From Thiomicrorhabdus arctica DSM 13458 (GTDB taxonomy: Bacteria > Pseudomonadota > Gammaproteobacteria > Thiomicrospirales > Thiomicrospiraceae), in the NCBI RefSeq assembly GCF_000381085.1, contig NZ_KB905899.1, forward strand, positions 806,001-870,000: 64,000 bases of DNA, written 5' to 3'. This document shows, in pieces, positions 22,935-54,789 of this stretch. The position numbers and the translations under genes are program-made. The stretch's first letter is position 1; each line of letters opens with the position of its first letter. The notes under the pieces were generated by a model. That model saw nothing but the letters and a program-made list of their open reading frames with translations. It was not told where the DNA came from and did no database searches.

Positions 22935-23019
22935 TTCTTCCCAACCTTCCCCCTAATGTCTTTAAATAGGGGGAATCGGTTTCTTAGGAAAACTATCCAC
23001 ATAACTTGAGAAGCAAACG

Positions 23020-25989
23020 ATGCGTTGGATAAAACCTCTTGGCCTAATTTTCCTGGTAACGTTGCTCCTTCTTATAGTGGGGCTTTCCTTCACGCTGCAC
23101 CAAAAAATTAAACAAGCTGAGATTACCAACCTTACCTGGTCACTTGGCCACCTGGGGTTTAATTCCCTCGAATTAGAAAACATTAGCGCAACTTACCAAC
23201 AGCAACAGCATATTCGATTGGAGAATGTCCAAGTCCATTGGACAGATATCAGTACTTGGTTTGACTCCTCTTTTCAAATCACAACGTTAGCCATCGAAAA
23301 TGCGCAGCTGCAATTAACCTTTCAAAAACGCATCGAAGGCCAAGTGCCTAACAAAGAAACGCCTCTAGAATTTTCTTGGCCTAAAACGCCAGAAGAGTGG
23401 CAAGCTAATTCTTTTTTAAGTGAGCGGCTCCCTTGGTTGGCTTTACTGCCTAAAAAAACTGTGATTAAACACTTTTCATTCAGTCGTCATTGCCCAGAAG
23501 GTTTATGCAGTTTGACTGGACAACTCAGTGCTTCAATTGAAACCAGACAGACAACTCAGCAATCTATGCCCTTGCAAGCAAACTTTCAAGGTTTGATCTC
23601 GAATCCGATCTCTCCCGACAATCAACTCTCTTTTCAATTGAAAGCCGCCCTATCCTCTGAAAAATTACCCAGCCTGCAGTTACAACTTTCACTCGATAAT
23701 AGCCTTAACTTAACTCTGAATAATGAGATCAGACTGCATCGCGATTTAAGCTCTGAAAACCAACTTTACACAAGTTTACAACTGTCCGGGACTATTCCCA
23801 ACCCCATCTGGTTTAAAACGCTTGAGAACTGGTCTGGACTAAAACTAACAGAAGCGACTTTATTACAACTGCATCAGCAGGCATCGACGCCTGTTAACAT
23901 CGACATTCTCAATAACATGCCTTTAACATCCGTTACCTTACTTGTTAAACAGCTGAGTTCGACAAACCCGAAAATTAAAAAAACAGCAACCACTGAACCA
24001 TCACCTTTCAGCAAACCGGTTGAATTCGTTTCCAAACTGTCTACCCAATTTGAGATGAACATTGAACTGCCAAAACCCATCCCTATTCCTGCAATCGGTT
24101 TGCTCCAAGGGACACTCAAAGCTAAGCTTAAACTGCAACAGGGACTCTTACAGAATTATCAACTGCATGCCAGTGGTAACCTCTCAGAGCATGCCTTCTC
24201 AGAAAAGTTAAAAGCATTCGGGCAATTTAAAGGACTTGATATTGCGAAGATTTCTTTTGACCTAAACAGTCAAATTCGTTCTCAGAAAAACGATTTAGCC
24301 AACATTCCATTTAATCTGTCTTTAAACTCCGTTACGCCGACGATGAGTAAAAGCCAACTCCGTTTGGTGACTCAGGGTGAACTCTTTATTGGAGACAACC
24401 CTCGTCTCAAGCTGTATGACGCTCGAATCACTTTGCAGCAACCTGCATTAACCATTCAAGTCACTTCAGACCAACCACACTATGACATTCAGAACCTTGC
24501 GCTGAATATTCCCTTTACAGCGGATTATCAAAATCAAGTCTTTACTTTCAAATCACCTTCAGCGCTGATTAAGAGCGATGTCAAAATCGTTGATCAATCG
24601 AATGGTGCCTCTTTAGCGATATTCAACCAATCTAGCCTGCAACTGAACAGGCTCAATGTTCATTTAAGAACCGATCCTATTAACCCTCTAACGTGGTCAC
24701 TCTCAAGCAAAAAAACAGTTCTTAATGCCCAATTTACAAGTCCACCGTTAAAAGCTAAAAACCTTCAGGTTAGCTTAACTTCTCTGCAATTAAACAATTC
24801 TGATAATGGACTGAGCTCTCACCCCGTACAAATCAATGCCCATTATAATGTCTCTACGGCACGGTTAGAGCAGGCTAAACTCGTGCCTCAATTCTGGTCG
24901 GCTAAAGGGGTTTTATCGGGAGGAGTGGATGACTTTAAATTTTCAGGTCGCATTAGCAATGCCTCTGAATTAAGCATTAAGCACAATAGCCGCTGGAAAA
25001 ACCAAAACCTCAGCAGCACCTGGTCGCTAGAACCGCTGTTTTTTCTGGGCGGTAATCCACTGAAAAAGTCTTTCTCTTTTTGGCCTCAAGAACTCACATT
25101 GGCCAGCGGCCAAATGGCTTTACAAGGTCAATTAAAATTCAATTTTAAGCTTTTAAAAGCTCCCCTTGCAGCACTGTCTGGCACAGTCAATGCCGACATT
25201 AAACAAGTAAGCGGTCTCTATCAGCAAACGGCTTTCAGCCAAATCAGCGTATTATCAGCCCTTAATTTAAACAATAAACACTTTAATGTCTCTCTACCCA
25301 CCTTACAGATCACCCGAGTCAATCATGGCCTGATTGCCGGGCCAGTTCAAATGACTGCTCGTTATGAAGGTGCATTGGCCAACCCTCTAAAGGGAGTACT
25401 CGAAATAGAGACTCTACGCAGCGGACTTTTTAACGGCCAAGCCTGGTTAGATCCTCAAATCATCAATCTGTCTAAACCTTTTAAAACCACACTCCATTTA
25501 AAAGACATTGATATTGAAGAACTACTGAAACAGCATCCAACGAGTAATTTAAAAGGCAAAGGATTGATCGATGGTACATTGCCATTAGAGATTGATTTAA
25601 CAACGGAATCGCCAAGCTTCTTAATTCAACAGGGTCTAGTCACCTCTCAAGCCAGTGGAGGTTTATTACAATATCAACCAGAGGCTAAATCAGGCATTGG
25701 TAAAAGTAATCAAGGTATGCAACTCGTCTTAGATGTATTGGATGATTTTCACTACACATTATTACAGAGCAGTGTCAGCATAGGAGTGGATCAAAAACTA
25801 AATTTAGGATTGACCCTAAAAGGGCAAAATCCGAATGTCGAAAAGGGTCGAGCGATTAACTTAAATATCAATCTGGAAGAAGACCTACCTTCTTTGATAA
25901 CCAGTATGCAAATCACCAATCAAGTGAGTGAAACCATTAAACGCAGAGTTCAAGAAAAAATTCGACAACAATCTAATCAGGAAAAATAA
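23020..25989 (+). CDS. ydbH: YdbH-like AsmA-superfamily intermembrane lipid transport protein
   Basis: A 989-residue protein with a single N-terminal membrane anchor (about 6-26) and a long region of repeated beta-rich segments with no cysteine-rich or enzymatic motif, as expected for a bridge-like periplasmic lipid transporter. The C-terminal part has the characteristic Gly-rich SGGLLQYQPEAKSGIG block followed by a DFHYTLLQSSVSIG-type strand and KGQNPN. The call rests heavily on context: the next two genes are a YnbE-like lipoprotein and a YdbL-like DUF1318 protein, the ydbH-ynbE-ydbL order of E. coli. In E. coli YdbH acts redundantly with TamB and YhdP in phospholipid transport to the outer membrane. 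Confidence 0.85.
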   Translation: MRWIKPLGLIFLVTLLLLIVGLSFTLHQKIKQAEITNLTWSLGHLGFNSLELENISATYQQQQHIRLENVQVHWTDISTWFDSSFQITTLAIENAQLQLTFQKRIEGQVPNKETPLEFSWPKTPEEWQANSFLSERLPWLALLPKKTVIKHFSFSRHCPEGLCSLTGQLSASIETRQTTQQSMPLQANFQGLISNPISPDNQLSFQLKAALSSEKLPSLQLQLSLDNSLNLTLNNEIRLHRDLSSENQLYTSLQLSGTIPNPIWFKTLENWSGLKLTEATLLQLHQQASTPVNIDILNNMPLTSVTLLVKQLSSTNPKIKKTATTEPSPFSKPVEFVSKLSTQFEMNIELPKPIPIPAIGLLQGTLKAKLKLQQGLLQNYQLHASGNLSEHAFSEKLKAFGQFKGLDIAKISFDLNSQIRSQKNDLANIPFNLSLNSVTPTMSKSQLRLVTQGELFIGDNPRLKLYDARITLQQPALTIQVTSDQPHYDIQNLALNIPFTADYQNQVFTFKSPSALIKSDVKIVDQSNGASLAIFNQSSLQLNRLNVHLRTDPINPLTWSLSSKKTVLNAQFTSPPLKAKNLQVSLTSLQLNNSDNGLSSHPVQINAHYNVSTARLEQAKLVPQFWSAKGVLSGGVDDFKFSGRISNASELSIKHNSRWKNQNLSSTWSLEPLFFLGGNPLKKSFSFWPQELTLASGQMALQGQLKFNFKLLKAPLAALSGTVNADIKQVSGLYQQTAFSQISVLSALNLNNKHFNVSLPTLQITRVNHGLIAGPVQMTARYEGALANPLKGVLEIETLRSGLFNGQAWLDPQIINLSKPFKTTLHLKDIDIEELLKQHPTSNLKGKGLIDGTLPLEIDLTTESPSFLIQQGLVTSQASGGLLQYQPEAKSGIGKSNQGMQLVLDVLDDFHYTLLQSSVSIGVDQKLNLGLTLKGQNPNVEKGRAINLNINLEEDLPSLITSMQITNQVSETIKRRVQEKIRQQSNQEK

Positions 25990-48853: not shown

Positions 48854-48890
48854 GACAAAAAAAAGGACCCAACTGGGTCCTTTTTTTGTC
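48854..48890. terminator. terminator of Ig/DUF3494 lipoprotein gene 1
   Basis: Long stem GACAAAAAAAAGGACCC / GGGTCCTTTTTTTGTC with AACT loop. Nearly the same terminator follows gene 2 at 50806-50843, part of the duplicated cassette. Confidence 0.88.
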
Positions 48891-48918
48891 ATTGTGCTTT
48901 CACACGGTAACACATACT

Positions 48919-50358
48919 TTATGGAGTTGTAACTACAGTAGTCGTACCAAGTCTAACTTCTGTCTGTGCAAGTAATCGGCCGTCTATGGTAGAACCGGAG
49001 ATCATTTCAATATCGGTTTTAGCCAATATATTGCCCTTAAATGCTGCAGCTGAATTAAGAGTTACTGTACTAGAAGCTTGCCAGAAGACATTTTTGGCCA
49101 CAGCACCGCCCGTAAGAAAAATAGACTTACTTGCTGCGAGATCTAGCGTACCGCTCACCTGGAAAATCCAGACATCATTCGCGCCGCCATCAAGCGTAAT
49201 GTCGCCTGTTAAGTTTACGTTGGTTCCCCATGTGTAAACACCAGGGACAAGTGTTTGAGCAGTCACCGTTCCAGCGCCAATATTCAAGTTTGAACCCACG
49301 CCTGCAGGAGCTGCAGCAGCTTCGGTGTATGCAGTACCCACGTCACCTATTGCAATGGCGGAAGCGTTCTTGTCAGTCGAAACACACGTATTAACAGGTT
49401 CAGCGTTGTCTGTAAACATTTCAGACCCAGCCGACAGTTCAGTACAGGCTACTGTAATAGACGCGCCAGTGATTGGGCTAGTACCAATATTACCAGTGAT
49501 TGTAGTGGATCCAGCAGAGGTAATACCTGCGGCTGTCATGATCGCAAAATTAGCAGCCGTCCTAAGATTGACTGGTGCCGGTCCTTTAGCAACGGTACTA
49601 CCGGTCGTAAATGTCCAGACCTTAGCCGCCGCCAAAGCATTTGCAGGCTTCGCGATGTCTGTAATACCCGTTGTTAATGTAGCCGTATAGGTCGTATTGA
49701 TAACCAAATTATCAGTTGGAGTAAAGCTTGCTACCCTATTGCTATAGCTAACTACGCCTGAAACTGACGTACCACCAGCACTTAATGTGAAGGTCGAATC
49801 ATTAACGGTAGCAGGGTGAACTGCTTCACTAAAAGTAGCACTGATTCGAGGGTTTATAACAACATCTGCCGCCACATCAAGAGGGTTAGTAGAGACTACA
49901 GTAGGCGCGATTGCATCAGCTGCCGTGCCACTAGTAAAACTCCAGACATAGGCTGCTGCAAGCGCCTGACCTGTGGCACTTTTTACTGCCGTTGAAAGTG
50001 TAGCCGTATGAAGTCTGCTAGCCGTGAAAGGTCTATCAGCCGTAAAAGTAGCCGTTTTAGATGCTGCATCATATGACACAGTACCCGTTAATGCTGACTC
50101 GTTTAAGCCAACAACAGTGAAACTACTGGTGGTAATAGTGGTGTCATCCATTGCTTCACTGAAAGTAACAACCACTTTGCTGTTAAGCGCCACATCTGTA
50201 ACAGTATTTATTGGTGCTGTTTCGACCACTGTTGGAGCTGTGCCCGTGGTTGTACCCGTGGTTGTACCACTACTGCTATTACATCCTGTAATAAGAGAGG
50301 TCAGCACAAGTCCGGCTAGCAACAAACTTCGGCCAGTGTATTTTTTAATCATATTCAT
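48919..50358 (-). CDS. surface lipoprotein with two Ig-like (Big_5) domains and a DUF3494 ice-binding-like domain (copy 1)
   Basis: 479 residues. Signal peptide with lipobox ITGC (Cys26), a Thr-rich linker, two Big_5/SbsD-type Ig modules (about 42-145 and 148-252: VALNSKVVVTFSEAMD and VVINPRISATFSEAVHP), and a DUF3494 beta-helix (about 257-479) recognisable by TLDGGANDVWIFQVSG, LTGGAVAKNVFWQ, FKGNILA and DGRLLAQT. DUF3494 proteins include ice-binding adhesins, but many members in non-polar bacteria have no tested ice activity; surface adhesion is the safer inference. Strong site GGAG 7 nt before ATG. Sits behind a long leader RNA region. Confidence 0.88.
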   Translation of the reverse strand: MNMIKKYTGRSLLLAGLVLTSLITGCNSSSGTTTGTTTGTAPTVVETAPINTVTDVALNSKVVVTFSEAMDDTTITTSSFTVVGLNESALTGTVSYDAASKTATFTADRPFTASRLHTATLSTAVKSATGQALAAAYVWSFTSGTAADAIAPTVVSTNPLDVAADVVINPRISATFSEAVHPATVNDSTFTLSAGGTSVSGVVSYSNRVASFTPTDNLVINTTYTATLTTGITDIAKPANALAAAKVWTFTTGSTVAKGPAPVNLRTAANFAIMTAAGITSAGSTTITGNIGTSPITGASITVACTELSAGSEMFTDNAEPVNTCVSTDKNASAIAIGDVGTAYTEAAAAPAGVGSNLNIGAGTVTAQTLVPGVYTWGTNVNLTGDITLDGGANDVWIFQVSGTLDLAASKSIFLTGGAVAKNVFWQASSTVTLNSAAAFKGNILAKTDIEMISGSTIDGRLLAQTEVRLGTTTVVTTP

Positions 50359-50574
50359 TATTTTTCTCCGGGGAGTTTTTAATACCGTGGGTGATAAGTA
50401 GCCATGATATTAATTGGCAAAAAACATATTCTTGCCTAAGGGGGGTTCTCTTTTATCCGCACCGCAGCACACTGTCCAATTACCTTGTATTGAAAGTTTT
50501 GCTGCGTTAAGGGGATTTTTTCGAGACTGTTCCGTCTAGTACTAAGGCCTCAGACGGAAGGAGGAGAGAACCCT
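50359..50574 (-). promoter_or_regulatory. long structured 5' leader of Ig/DUF3494 gene 1 (candidate cis-regulatory RNA)
   Basis: 216 nt between the inferred transcription start and the ATG. On the minus strand it can fold as a three-way junction: P1 GGGTTCTCT (50573-50565) with AGAGAACCC (50451-50443); P2 TTCCGTCT (50559-50552) with AGACGGAA (50537-50530); P3 CGCAGCA (50506-50500) with TGCTGCG (50469-50463). A further hairpin with GGCAAGAA arms spans 50436-50416. The segment CTCCTCCTT beside P1 resembles the 16S anti-Shine-Dalgarno and could mask the GGAG before the ATG. It is 204/207 identical to the leader of copy 2. I cannot match it to a known riboswitch class. Confidence 0.65.
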
Positions 50575-50610
50575 ACTATATACTTTAAATAGACCAATAG
50601 CTAAGTTAAT
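50404..50610. repeat. 207-bp duplicated leader, copy A
   Basis: Identical to 52385-52591 except for three bases (two near the left end, one at the AAGGGG/AAAGGG step). Offset between copies is exactly 1981 bp with no indel in the block. Confidence 0.95.
50582..50609 (-). promoter_or_regulatory. putative promoter of Ig/DUF3494 gene 1
   Basis: On the minus strand TTAACT (50604-50609), 16-nt spacer, TAAAGT (50582-50587). It predicts a start at about 50574, exactly where stem P1 begins. Conserved in copy 2. Confidence 0.5.
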
Positions 50611-50805
50611 CGGTCATTAAATAGGGTATTTCGTCACTAATTACATGGAAATGCGTATAAACACTAAGGAAAGGCTCGTGGTTTTGAGTAGCTATTGATC
50701 CATCACTCTATTTAATTTTCAGTCATACTTTTTGCAAGGCTCAATTTTTGCGCTACATTCTTTCTGTCAAAATCACACTACTAAGGGTAGTTATTCATTT
50801 GACTA

Positions 50806-50843
50806 GACAAAAAAAAGGACCCGATTGGGTCCTTTTTTTTGTC
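50806..50843. terminator. terminator of Ig/DUF3494 lipoprotein gene 2
   Basis: Same long stem as at 48854-48890, with loop GATT. Separates the two cassettes so that each is its own transcript. Confidence 0.88.
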
Positions 50844-50873
50844 ACGGTGCTTTCACACGGTATAACGCATACC

Positions 50874-52337
50874 TTATGGCTGCGTAACCGTATTACTTTG
50901 CAAGGTAACCGCAGTCTGCGATAACAGTCTGCCATTCACCGTTGCACCTGTTTTAACAGCAATCGCTTTTACAGCCAGCACAACACCTTTGAAATCTGCG
51001 TTGGTATCAATAGCAAGACCCGCTCCACCACCGATCTGCCAGAAGACATTCTTGGCTAGAGCCCCACCGGTCAATGTGACATGAGTGGCACTTGCCTGGA
51101 TAACGTCCCCTGCGATCTGAAAGATCCAGACATCATTTGGACCCCCATCGAGAGTAACATCCGTGTTGATCAGGACACTCGTACCCCACTTATAAAGGCC
51201 AGGAACCAGTGTTTTACCACTAACATCACCGGCATACAACTCAGTAAAATCAGGTGTTGTTCTGCCTGCCGCATCGGTATAGGCGATTCCCATATCGAGC
51301 ACCGCATTGGCGACTAACGTATTGTCAGGTGCCGTACCCTTAAAGCAGGTAACTGTACCACTGCCAGTATAGGCCGCATCCGCACCATAAATAAAACCAG
51401 TCATTTCTGAACAGGTCACATTATCCATTGCCGCAGCGGTAATTGGGCTAGCACCAATATTGCCAGTAATAGCGGATATAGGAACGTTTGTGATACCGGT
51501 TTTGGTCAAAATAACAAAGTCTCCCGCCGTGCTAAGATTAACCGGGGCCGGACCTTTAGCAATGACGGTGCCGGTCTTGAACGTCCACACTTTAGCCGTT
51601 GCTAGTGCATTTCCAGGATGCGTAATATCTTTAATGCCTGTTGTTAGCGTAGCAACATAGTCAGTGGAAATCTTTAGATCGCCATCAGGGTTAAAGGTCG
51701 CCACCTTGTTGTTATAGCTTACAGTACCTGAAACGGGTGTTCCGGCATCGGTTACCGTAAAGGTCGATGTATTAACAGTAACAGGATTAAGCGCTTCACT
51801 AAAAACAGCCGTCACGCTGCGATTAAGTAAAAAATCCACTGACAAGTCAACAGGGTCAGTAGAACTTACCGTAGGCGCAGTCGTATCGGTCACACTACCA
51901 CTAGTGAAACTCCAGACATAGGGCGCTGCCAGAGGAATGCCTGTTGCTCTTTTTACCGCAATCGTCAGTGTGGCTGTGTGGAGAGTGAGGGATGTAAAAT
52001 CGGCAGAGGGAGTAAAAGTAGCCGTATTAGATACGGCGTCATACGACACGGCACCGCTTAGTTTTAAACTTGTATTTTCATCAATTACGCTAAAGCTGTC
52101 GGTCGTAATTGTGGTGGCATCCATCGCTTCACTGAAGCTGACAATCACATTGCTGTTAAGTGCCACACCTGTAGCAAGGTCGACCGGTGTCGTTTCGATC
52201 ACTGTCGGAACGCTAGTTGTAGTTGTAGTAGTGGTGGTACTTGTTCCACTACCACTACTACATCCTGCGATAAGTGTCGTTAACATAAGGCCGGCTAGCC
52301 ACAAACTTCGGCCAGTGTATTTTTTAATCATATTCAT
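50874..52337 (-). CDS. surface lipoprotein with two Ig-like (Big_5) domains and a DUF3494 ice-binding-like domain (copy 2)
   Basis: 487 residues, same plan as copy 1: signal peptide with lipobox IAGC (Cys26), Thr/Val linker, Ig modules with VALNSNVIVSFSEAMD and LLNRSVTAVFSEALNP, and a DUF3494 domain with TLDGGPNDVWIFQIAG, LTGGALAKNVFWQ, FKGVVLA and NGRLLSQT. The first 25 residues are almost the same as in copy 1 while the rest looks about 60% identical. A cysteine pair in the DUF3494 domain (NVTCSEM and GTVTCFKG) has a counterpart in copy 1. Preceded by the same leader and followed by the same terminator, so the whole cassette was duplicated in tandem. Confidence 0.88.
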   Translation of the reverse strand: MNMIKKYTGRSLWLAGLMLTTLIAGCSSGSGTSTTTTTTTTSVPTVIETTPVDLATGVALNSNVIVSFSEAMDATTITTDSFSVIDENTSLKLSGAVSYDAVSNTATFTPSADFTSLTLHTATLTIAVKRATGIPLAAPYVWSFTSGSVTDTTAPTVSSTDPVDLSVDFLLNRSVTAVFSEALNPVTVNTSTFTVTDAGTPVSGTVSYNNKVATFNPDGDLKISTDYVATLTTGIKDITHPGNALATAKVWTFKTGTVIAKGPAPVNLSTAGDFVILTKTGITNVPISAITGNIGASPITAAAMDNVTCSEMTGFIYGADAAYTGSGTVTCFKGTAPDNTLVANAVLDMGIAYTDAAGRTTPDFTELYAGDVSGKTLVPGLYKWGTSVLINTDVTLDGGPNDVWIFQIAGDVIQASATHVTLTGGALAKNVFWQIGGGAGLAIDTNADFKGVVLAVKAIAVKTGATVNGRLLSQTAVTLQSNTVTQP

Positions 52338-52555
52338 TATTTTTCTCCGTGGAGTGTTTAATATCGTGGGGTTATAAAATAGCCATGATATTGATGGGCA
52401 AAAAACATATTCTTGCCTAAGGGGGGTTCTCTTTTATCCGCACCGCAGCACACTGTCCAATTACCTTGTATTGAAAGTTTTGCTGCGTTAAAGGGATTTT
52501 TTCGAGACTGTTCCGTCTAGTACTAAGGCCTCAGACGGAAGGAGGAGAGAACCCT
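52338..52555 (-). promoter_or_regulatory. long structured 5' leader of Ig/DUF3494 gene 2 (candidate cis-regulatory RNA)
   Basis: Same folding elements as copy A, shifted by 1981 bp: P1 arms at 52554-52546 and 52432-52424, P2 and P3 between them unchanged. None of the three differences falls in a P1, P2 or P3 arm. The same promoter elements lie at 52563-52590. The RBS region again has CTCC next to GGAG before the ATG. Confidence 0.65.
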
Positions 52556-52591
52556 ACTATATACTTTAAATAGACCAATAGCTAAGTTAAT
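52385..52591. repeat. 207-bp duplicated leader, copy B
   Basis: Partner of 50404-50610. Outside the block the flanks diverge at once upstream (CGGTC versus TTATA). Confidence 0.95.
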
Positions 52592-53904: not shown

Positions 53905-54789
53905 TTACTGAATCTTAGAAAGTAAGTCAGGATTGGTCACTAAGTTTCTAACGCCATGTGCATGATCTTCATTAAAGACATTACCTTTACACCATTGTGC
54001 AACCGATTTGATATTCACTTTTTCTACTTGAGGACGAACGCTCCATGTAACTTGGAATGGAGAACCCGCTTCATTGTAACCCGGTCCAGTCGTAGAGCCC
54101 GCATACTCAACAGGTGTTCCTGTATTGCTTGGGATATTCAACGCTTGGTAAACGCCCTTTTTCATACCGTATTGGGTTAAGTTATTAAAATCTAAAGCCG
54201 CCTGATCATTAACCAAAACATAGACTTGTGTTTCTACGCGCAATTGAGGATTCTTAATAGAATCGCTTAAACAAGCTCCTAACGTTGGGCCTGGAGTGAC
54301 ATTTGCTGTTGAGTAAACATAATGCACTTCGATCGTGTCACCTGAAGACAAAACACTATGTTCACTCGGACAAATTTTAGATTTAGTTGGCATCTTTTCA
54401 GACGATGTTAGCTTACCGCTATATTTATAACCACTCTGATCACCATGACCATTACCATTGCCTGCAAAAGTAGTGAACTCGCCACCTTTATGCTCCGCAT
54501 TTTTATGAAAGTGAATATTACACAGATTCATATTCGAAGAAGCAGGAGACGAATTAAATATAATCGAATTTGCCCCCATTTTGGCATCAATATCACGGGG
54601 TGATTGTGGCCCGAATCCTTTCCCTGTTGTATTTGCTGCTAAAGCGGCGCGCTGTTGAGAGACGACCTCATCGGCAACCGGACTATGATGGCTTTCATCG
54701 TGAAGACCGGTTGTGGCACAAGCTTGTAAAAGGACGGTTGATGCTAATACTGTAATAATTCTCTTATTCAATTTTCGACTCCTAGTCAT
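53905..54789 (-). CDS. delta-class carbonic anhydrase-like lipoprotein
   Basis: 294 residues. A signal peptide with lipobox LLQAC (Cys24) indicates a lipid-anchored periplasmic or surface protein. The core motif is C90-NIHFHKNAEH (His93, His95, Glu99, His100), matching the CNxHxHxxAEH zinc-site pattern I associate with diatom TWCA1-type delta carbonic anhydrases (CA_like family). Further blocks are DTIEVHYVYST (152-161) and EDHAHGVRNLV (274-284), and a pair of Cys (C140, C173) could form a disulfide. Expected reaction: CO2/bicarbonate interconversion in the periplasm, serving carbon uptake in an autotroph. Family match is from memory and activity is inferred. Confidence 0.8.
   Translation of the reverse strand: MTRSRKLNKRIITVLASTVLLQACATTGLHDESHHSPVADEVVSQQRAALAANTTGKGFGPQSPRDIDAKMGANSIIFNSSPASSNMNLCNIHFHKNAEHKGGEFTTFAGNGNGHGDQSGYKYSGKLTSSEKMPTKSKICPSEHSVLSSGDTIEVHYVYSTANVTPGPTLGACLSDSIKNPQLRVETQVYVLVNDQAALDFNNLTQYGMKKGVYQALNIPSNTGTPVEYAGSTTGPGYNEAGSPFQVTWSVRPQVEKVNIKSVAQWCKGNVFNEDHAHGVRNLVTNPDLLSKIQ

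Follow-up and report, generated by a model that had tools for sequence, protein, structure and literature searches.

Many of the candidate structured cis-regulatory RNAs described as 'motifs', named after the gene downstream of them, are in Rfam, and the c-di-GMP riboswitches (GEMM-I/II) are often found ahead of adhesin genes. The cspA mRNA is a known thermosensor (PMC6386945, PMC9947658). Here we compare with these systems a duplicated leader found in a 64,000-nucleotide stretch of the Thiomicrorhabdus arctica DSM 13458 genome (contig NZ_KB905899.1, positions 806,001 to 870,000; hereafter the window). Judged from its sequence, the leader is best read as a structured 5'-UTR element that is new, of narrow distribution, and absent from Rfam. 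With Rfam 15, no match at the gathering threshold was obtained anywhere in the window, and the window leader gave nothing up to E 10; its homologs in two other genomes (Kmv17 and G189, see below) gave only sub-threshold, chance-level matches to unrelated families. The earlier note on this DNA had failed to place the leader in a known riboswitch class; likewise, no Rfam family fits the leader or its homologs, and there is no strong hit to a known class. A limited, partial literature search found no account of DUF3494 genes being controlled by a leader.

The two 207-bp blocks, at 50404-50610 (copy A) and 52385-52591 (copy B, promoter and leader with elements as in copy A), both lie on the minus strand and differ at 3 of 207 bases (98.6% identity). 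The earlier note had reported this duplication exactly, and its statement that no difference touches the stems is borne out by the location of all three mismatches (copy A/copy B: 50412/52393, 50415/52396, and 50511/52492). Behind each block lies a lipoprotein gene, gene A at 48919-50358 and gene B at 50874-52337 (minus strand), in which Pfam recognizes two Big_5 domains and a C-terminal Ice_binding domain (PF11999, DUF3494). The proteins are 57% identical overall (about 60% had been estimated), with 61% over the Big_5 portion and 49% over the DUF3494 domain. The identity between the copies falls abruptly to background upstream of ~50610, is 95-100% across the leader, and decays more slowly downstream, with ~82-92% until the start codon, 92-100% over the signal peptide, and 60-75% deeper in the gene.

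A similar intrinsic terminator follows each gene on the minus strand, at 48857-48909 for gene A and at 50810-50862 for gene B (a GGACCC hairpin with A and T runs); the two are 77% identical and nearly palindromic, flanked on either side by A and T runs. The repeated unit is therefore promoter-leader-lipoprotein-terminator, present as two tandem single-gene units. A search of the 2.55-Mb genome found these two leader copies only, each ahead of a paralogous gene, which rules out a mobile repeat (MITE/REP-like) present in many dispersed copies. A weak profile match inside the window (22939-23043) covers an intergenic stretch extending into the next gene. Two more DUF3494 genes of this genome have no leader (L054 2085-2843 and L055 1501-2709), and one of them carries a C-terminal PEP-type sorting end. 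The array is adjoined by a gene for a delta carbonic anhydrase family protein (53905-54789, minus strand; PF10563, E 2e-81), in a genome resembling that of a sulfur oxidiser.

At the upstream edge of the conserved block in copy A (all elements on the minus strand), a putative -35-like element (TTAGCT..., 50594-50604) shows a weak consensus match and is kept in 5 of the 6 known leaders, being diverged in G189. It is followed by a predicted -10 element, TATAGT (50575-50580), preceded by a TTTAAAG sequence that is invariant in all six. The earlier note had placed the transcription start at a stem P1, whose 5' strand, GGGTTCTCT followed by CC, occupies 50563-50573. A promoter is indeed predicted 5' of P1; transcription, however, likely starts within P1, because the -10 box ends at 50575 and the usual spacing is 6-8 nt. 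In the folding model, a pyrimidine-rich tract near this 5' end, UCUCCUCC (50560-50567), would be the complement of the Shine-Dalgarno sequence, the GGAG of which lies together with the start codon at 50356-50370.

The earlier note had pointed to related genomes as the place to look for homologs of the leader, and they were found in two. A family search of 63 genomes returned one further genome, that of Thiomicrospira sp. Kmv17 (G039, a MAG), with three tandem copies (K1-K3), each ahead of a DUF3494 lipoprotein gene. The sixth leader is a single, full-length copy in G189, a gammaproteobacterium of another order, found with a model of the five other leaders built without it (65 bits, E 8e-13), and it stands directly 5' of a DUF3494/Big_5 lipoprotein gene. 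All six leaders, from three genera and two orders, are thus ahead of DUF3494/Big_5 lipoprotein genes; the gene neighbourhoods differ between the genomes, and therefore leader and gene travel together. Near the Kmv17 lipoprotein array there are type II secretion-like genes (L036 9895-11997; GspL/M/N-like, from sequence). In G189, the lipoprotein gene is followed by a transposase-like ORF, and another, divergent DUF3494 gene sits across the leader (the two features are covered by L069 3202-3567 and 6000-6845), an arrangement that suggests, from sequence, mobility of the cassette.

Nothing credible was found in the ten other genomes of the order of G189, nor in further, overlapping class and phylum samples (1,979 genome searches counted in all). 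Phages and plasmids gave no match to the leader, and pattern scans of IMG/VR gave nothing or chance fragments. Two weak model matches were judged false, one spanning the start of a queF-like gene (G097) and the other overlapping a clpB-like gene at its 3' end (G690). The leader element is real but rare. Relatives of the protein occur in 26 of 369 genomes of the class sample. A full-length one in G406 lacks the leader, which is thus dispensable for the gene. Other DUF3494 genes without the leader are one in Kmv17 and a pair in G040, where the contig ends.

The leader region folds better than its own shuffles (z -3.5, 0/200). The stems P1, P2, and P3 of the earlier note are present as stated in both window copies, but the exact three-way junction that it drew from them is not supported, the P1-P2-P3 set being no better than shuffles. 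Only the two window copies have P1 intact; it is not kept outside this genome. The flanks of P3 are supported, as is P2, whereas in every other leader a purine-purine mismatch takes the place of the middle pair of P3. Two 3' hairpins, P4 and P5, were absent from that fold. The revised model consists of P2, P3 (a to f), P4, and P5. In copy A (minus strand throughout), P2 is a hairpin at 50530-50559 with the loop RAGGCCU-N-ACUAG and two pairs changed on both sides. The long arm P3 (50448-50526), supported by compensatory changes, runs from P3a (CUC/GAG) up to a cap, CAAU[ACAAGGUA]AUUG, at 50477-50492. P4 (GGCAAGA/UUUUGCC, 50416-50436) has 100% of its cells paired and is mostly invariant; its U run lies within the stem and none follows the hairpin, so it is not a terminator. 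P5 (AAUAUC.UGG/CCA.GGUAUU, 50381-50411; 52360-52392 in copy B) again has two pairs changed on both sides, and its 3' end is just upstream of the Shine-Dalgarno sequence. The AGAGA strand that closes P1 can also pair with the invariant CUC of P3a. By eye, a loop-loop contact seems possible between GCCU of the P2 loop (50538-50550) and AGGU of the P3 cap (50481-50488); it could form in 5 of the 6 leaders and is broken in K1.

The alignment on which this model rests comprises six leaders from three genomes (both window copies, K1-K3, and G189), which are non-independent because of conversion within genomes. The revised fold pairs 92.6% of the cells, and only 34-45% are paired when the partners are slid by 1-3 columns. 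Pair changes on both sides number 6, compared with 1.7 +/- 1.1 in shuffles (0/500 shuffles reach this value), a count that leans toward the fold because alignment and structure share the same few related sequences. They include U-A to C-G in G189 and U-A to G-C in K1 (both P2), U-A to A-U in G189 (P3e), and C-G to U-A in P5 between K3 and K2. P3c shows the series G-C, G-U, and A-U across the leaders, and wobble cells favour the sense strand modestly (15 G-U vs 7 A-C in the alignment). Within these six related sequences, base pairs appear to be kept by compensatory change.

Taken together, a selected cis-acting RNA structure is likely. The cis-regulatory RNA proposed in the earlier note accordingly stands as a structured leader before orthologous genes in two other genera, with compensatory changes in P2, P3, and a 3' hairpin; the exact fold drawn there is not supported. 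The fuller reading, that the block is a promoter followed by a structured cis-acting 5'-UTR of ~200 nt whose fold is kept by selection and which probably tunes translation, we hold with somewhat better than even confidence. Most likely, the leader would adjust how translation of the surface DUF3494 proteins is initiated, or how stable their mRNA is. No terminator-like site was found in the leader, and without a terminator hairpin and U run, an intrinsic-terminator attenuator is ruled out; this leaves translational control by way of the 5' end as the most economical proposal. In the OFF state, the pyrimidine-rich 5' end (UCUCC) would pair with the Shine-Dalgarno GGAGA; in the ON state, the 5' end would pair with AGAGA (the former P1) or be bound by a factor, and the ribosome site would be freed. 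Both transcription from the predicted start and the switch are what we infer.

The predicted pairing depends on the start site chosen. In folding of transcripts starting 6-8 nt after the -10 box, the Shine-Dalgarno sequence pairs with the 5' end at 85-100% in both window copies, K1, and K3; in K2 the pairing is weak and incomplete, and for G189 none is predicted. If the transcript instead begins at the base right after the box, P1 is able to form, and in the window copies the 5' end no longer holds the Shine-Dalgarno sequence. That the leader acts by covering the ribosome site is a tentative proposal, a little short of an even chance. Rather doubtful is the more ambitious view that the leader would represent an undescribed class of gammaproteobacterial regulatory RNA, in which the 5' end covers the ribosome-binding site or is captured by the internal AGAGA according to a signal sensed by P2/P3.

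The near identity of the window copies raises the question of recent recombination alone, that is, of one copy of a tandem array overwriting the other by conversion or unequal crossing-over, with no RNA function. The leaders group by genome (96% for the window copies, 92% for K2/K3), whereas the DUF3494 domains group by ortholog, copy B with K3 and G189 and copy A with K1 and K2 (81% for B-K3 and 70% for A-K1, vs 49% for A-B). The gene duplication hence predates the genus split, and the 98.6% identity within the genome needs homogenisation by recombination, which also reaches the signal peptide and some of the Big_5 part. Gene conversion, the main alternative in the earlier note, explains this near identity, but not the conservation between genera. 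There the leaders remain 59-78% identical, compared with 30-54% at fourfold-degenerate sites of the DUF3494 domain, which are near saturation, so the leader must be under selection; in the flank 5' of the promoter, similarity between genera does not clearly exceed that of shuffled sequence. The compensatory changes are also left unexplained, and recombination as the whole account is insufficient and improbable. Both forces act, as far as the sequences tell: selection maintains the leader and conversion equalises the copies in one genome.

Selection might also act on DNA, with a promoter containing regulator sites (imperfect palindromes such as P5, which could be an operator) and an incidental RNA fold. 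The conserved block does include the promoter, with its invariant TTTAAAG before the -10 box, yet ~200 conserved bases downstream of that box, changes on both sides of pairs with G-U intermediates, and conserved loops are features seen more typically in RNA, and we regard regulation at the DNA level as quite unlikely. Equally unlikely is a new riboswitch class for a metabolite or ion, with its aptamer in P2/P3, and a small-molecule ligand for the leader is correspondingly hard to credit. The multi-helix fold, the strongly conserved loops (RAGGCCU..ACUAG in P2, ACAAGGUA in P3), and the mutually exclusive pairings near both ends speak for it, but the leader is very rare and precedes one gene family only, which encodes neither an enzyme nor a transporter, and so narrow an association fits a leader bound by protein or sRNA equally well. 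A cold-responsive leader in the manner of cspA would suit the ice-binding annotation, and for it speak the long structured leader ahead of a gene of an ice-binding family and the known cspA thermosensor. The Kmv17 genome, however, comes from a mud volcano at 16 C (PMC7565565), a DUF3494 domain need not bind ice, and the thermodynamic model gives most leaders almost the same access to the Shine-Dalgarno sequence throughout the range of 4 to 37 C (it shifts in K2). The temperature of this one host and the mostly temperature-independent access make a thermosensor less likely, and we consider it very improbable.

The preferred reading, a selected structured leader with probable translational control, gives an orphan element that is absent from Rfam, tied to one surface lipoprotein family, and kept across orders. 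It offers a concrete entry point to the control of DUF3494 proteins in bacteria, and it illustrates cleanly how regulatory leaders stay similar, through conversion combined with selection, as the proteins behind them drift apart.

In respect to the described systems, the surface protein downstream would fit a c-di-GMP riboswitch, unlike which the window copy has no Rfam match up to the E value given above. Like the cspA 5'-UTR, the leader is long and structured and belongs to a gene that may serve in the cold; it differs in the missing Rfam match, in a modelled fold mostly insensitive to temperature, and in one host living at 16 C. From the 'motif' RNAs it is set apart by matching no Rfam model, and its homologs are far fewer and more narrowly distributed than those of most described examples. 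It is nevertheless like these RNAs in its general character, namely a multi-helix 5'-UTR fold ahead of one gene family, with compensatory changes in its helices.
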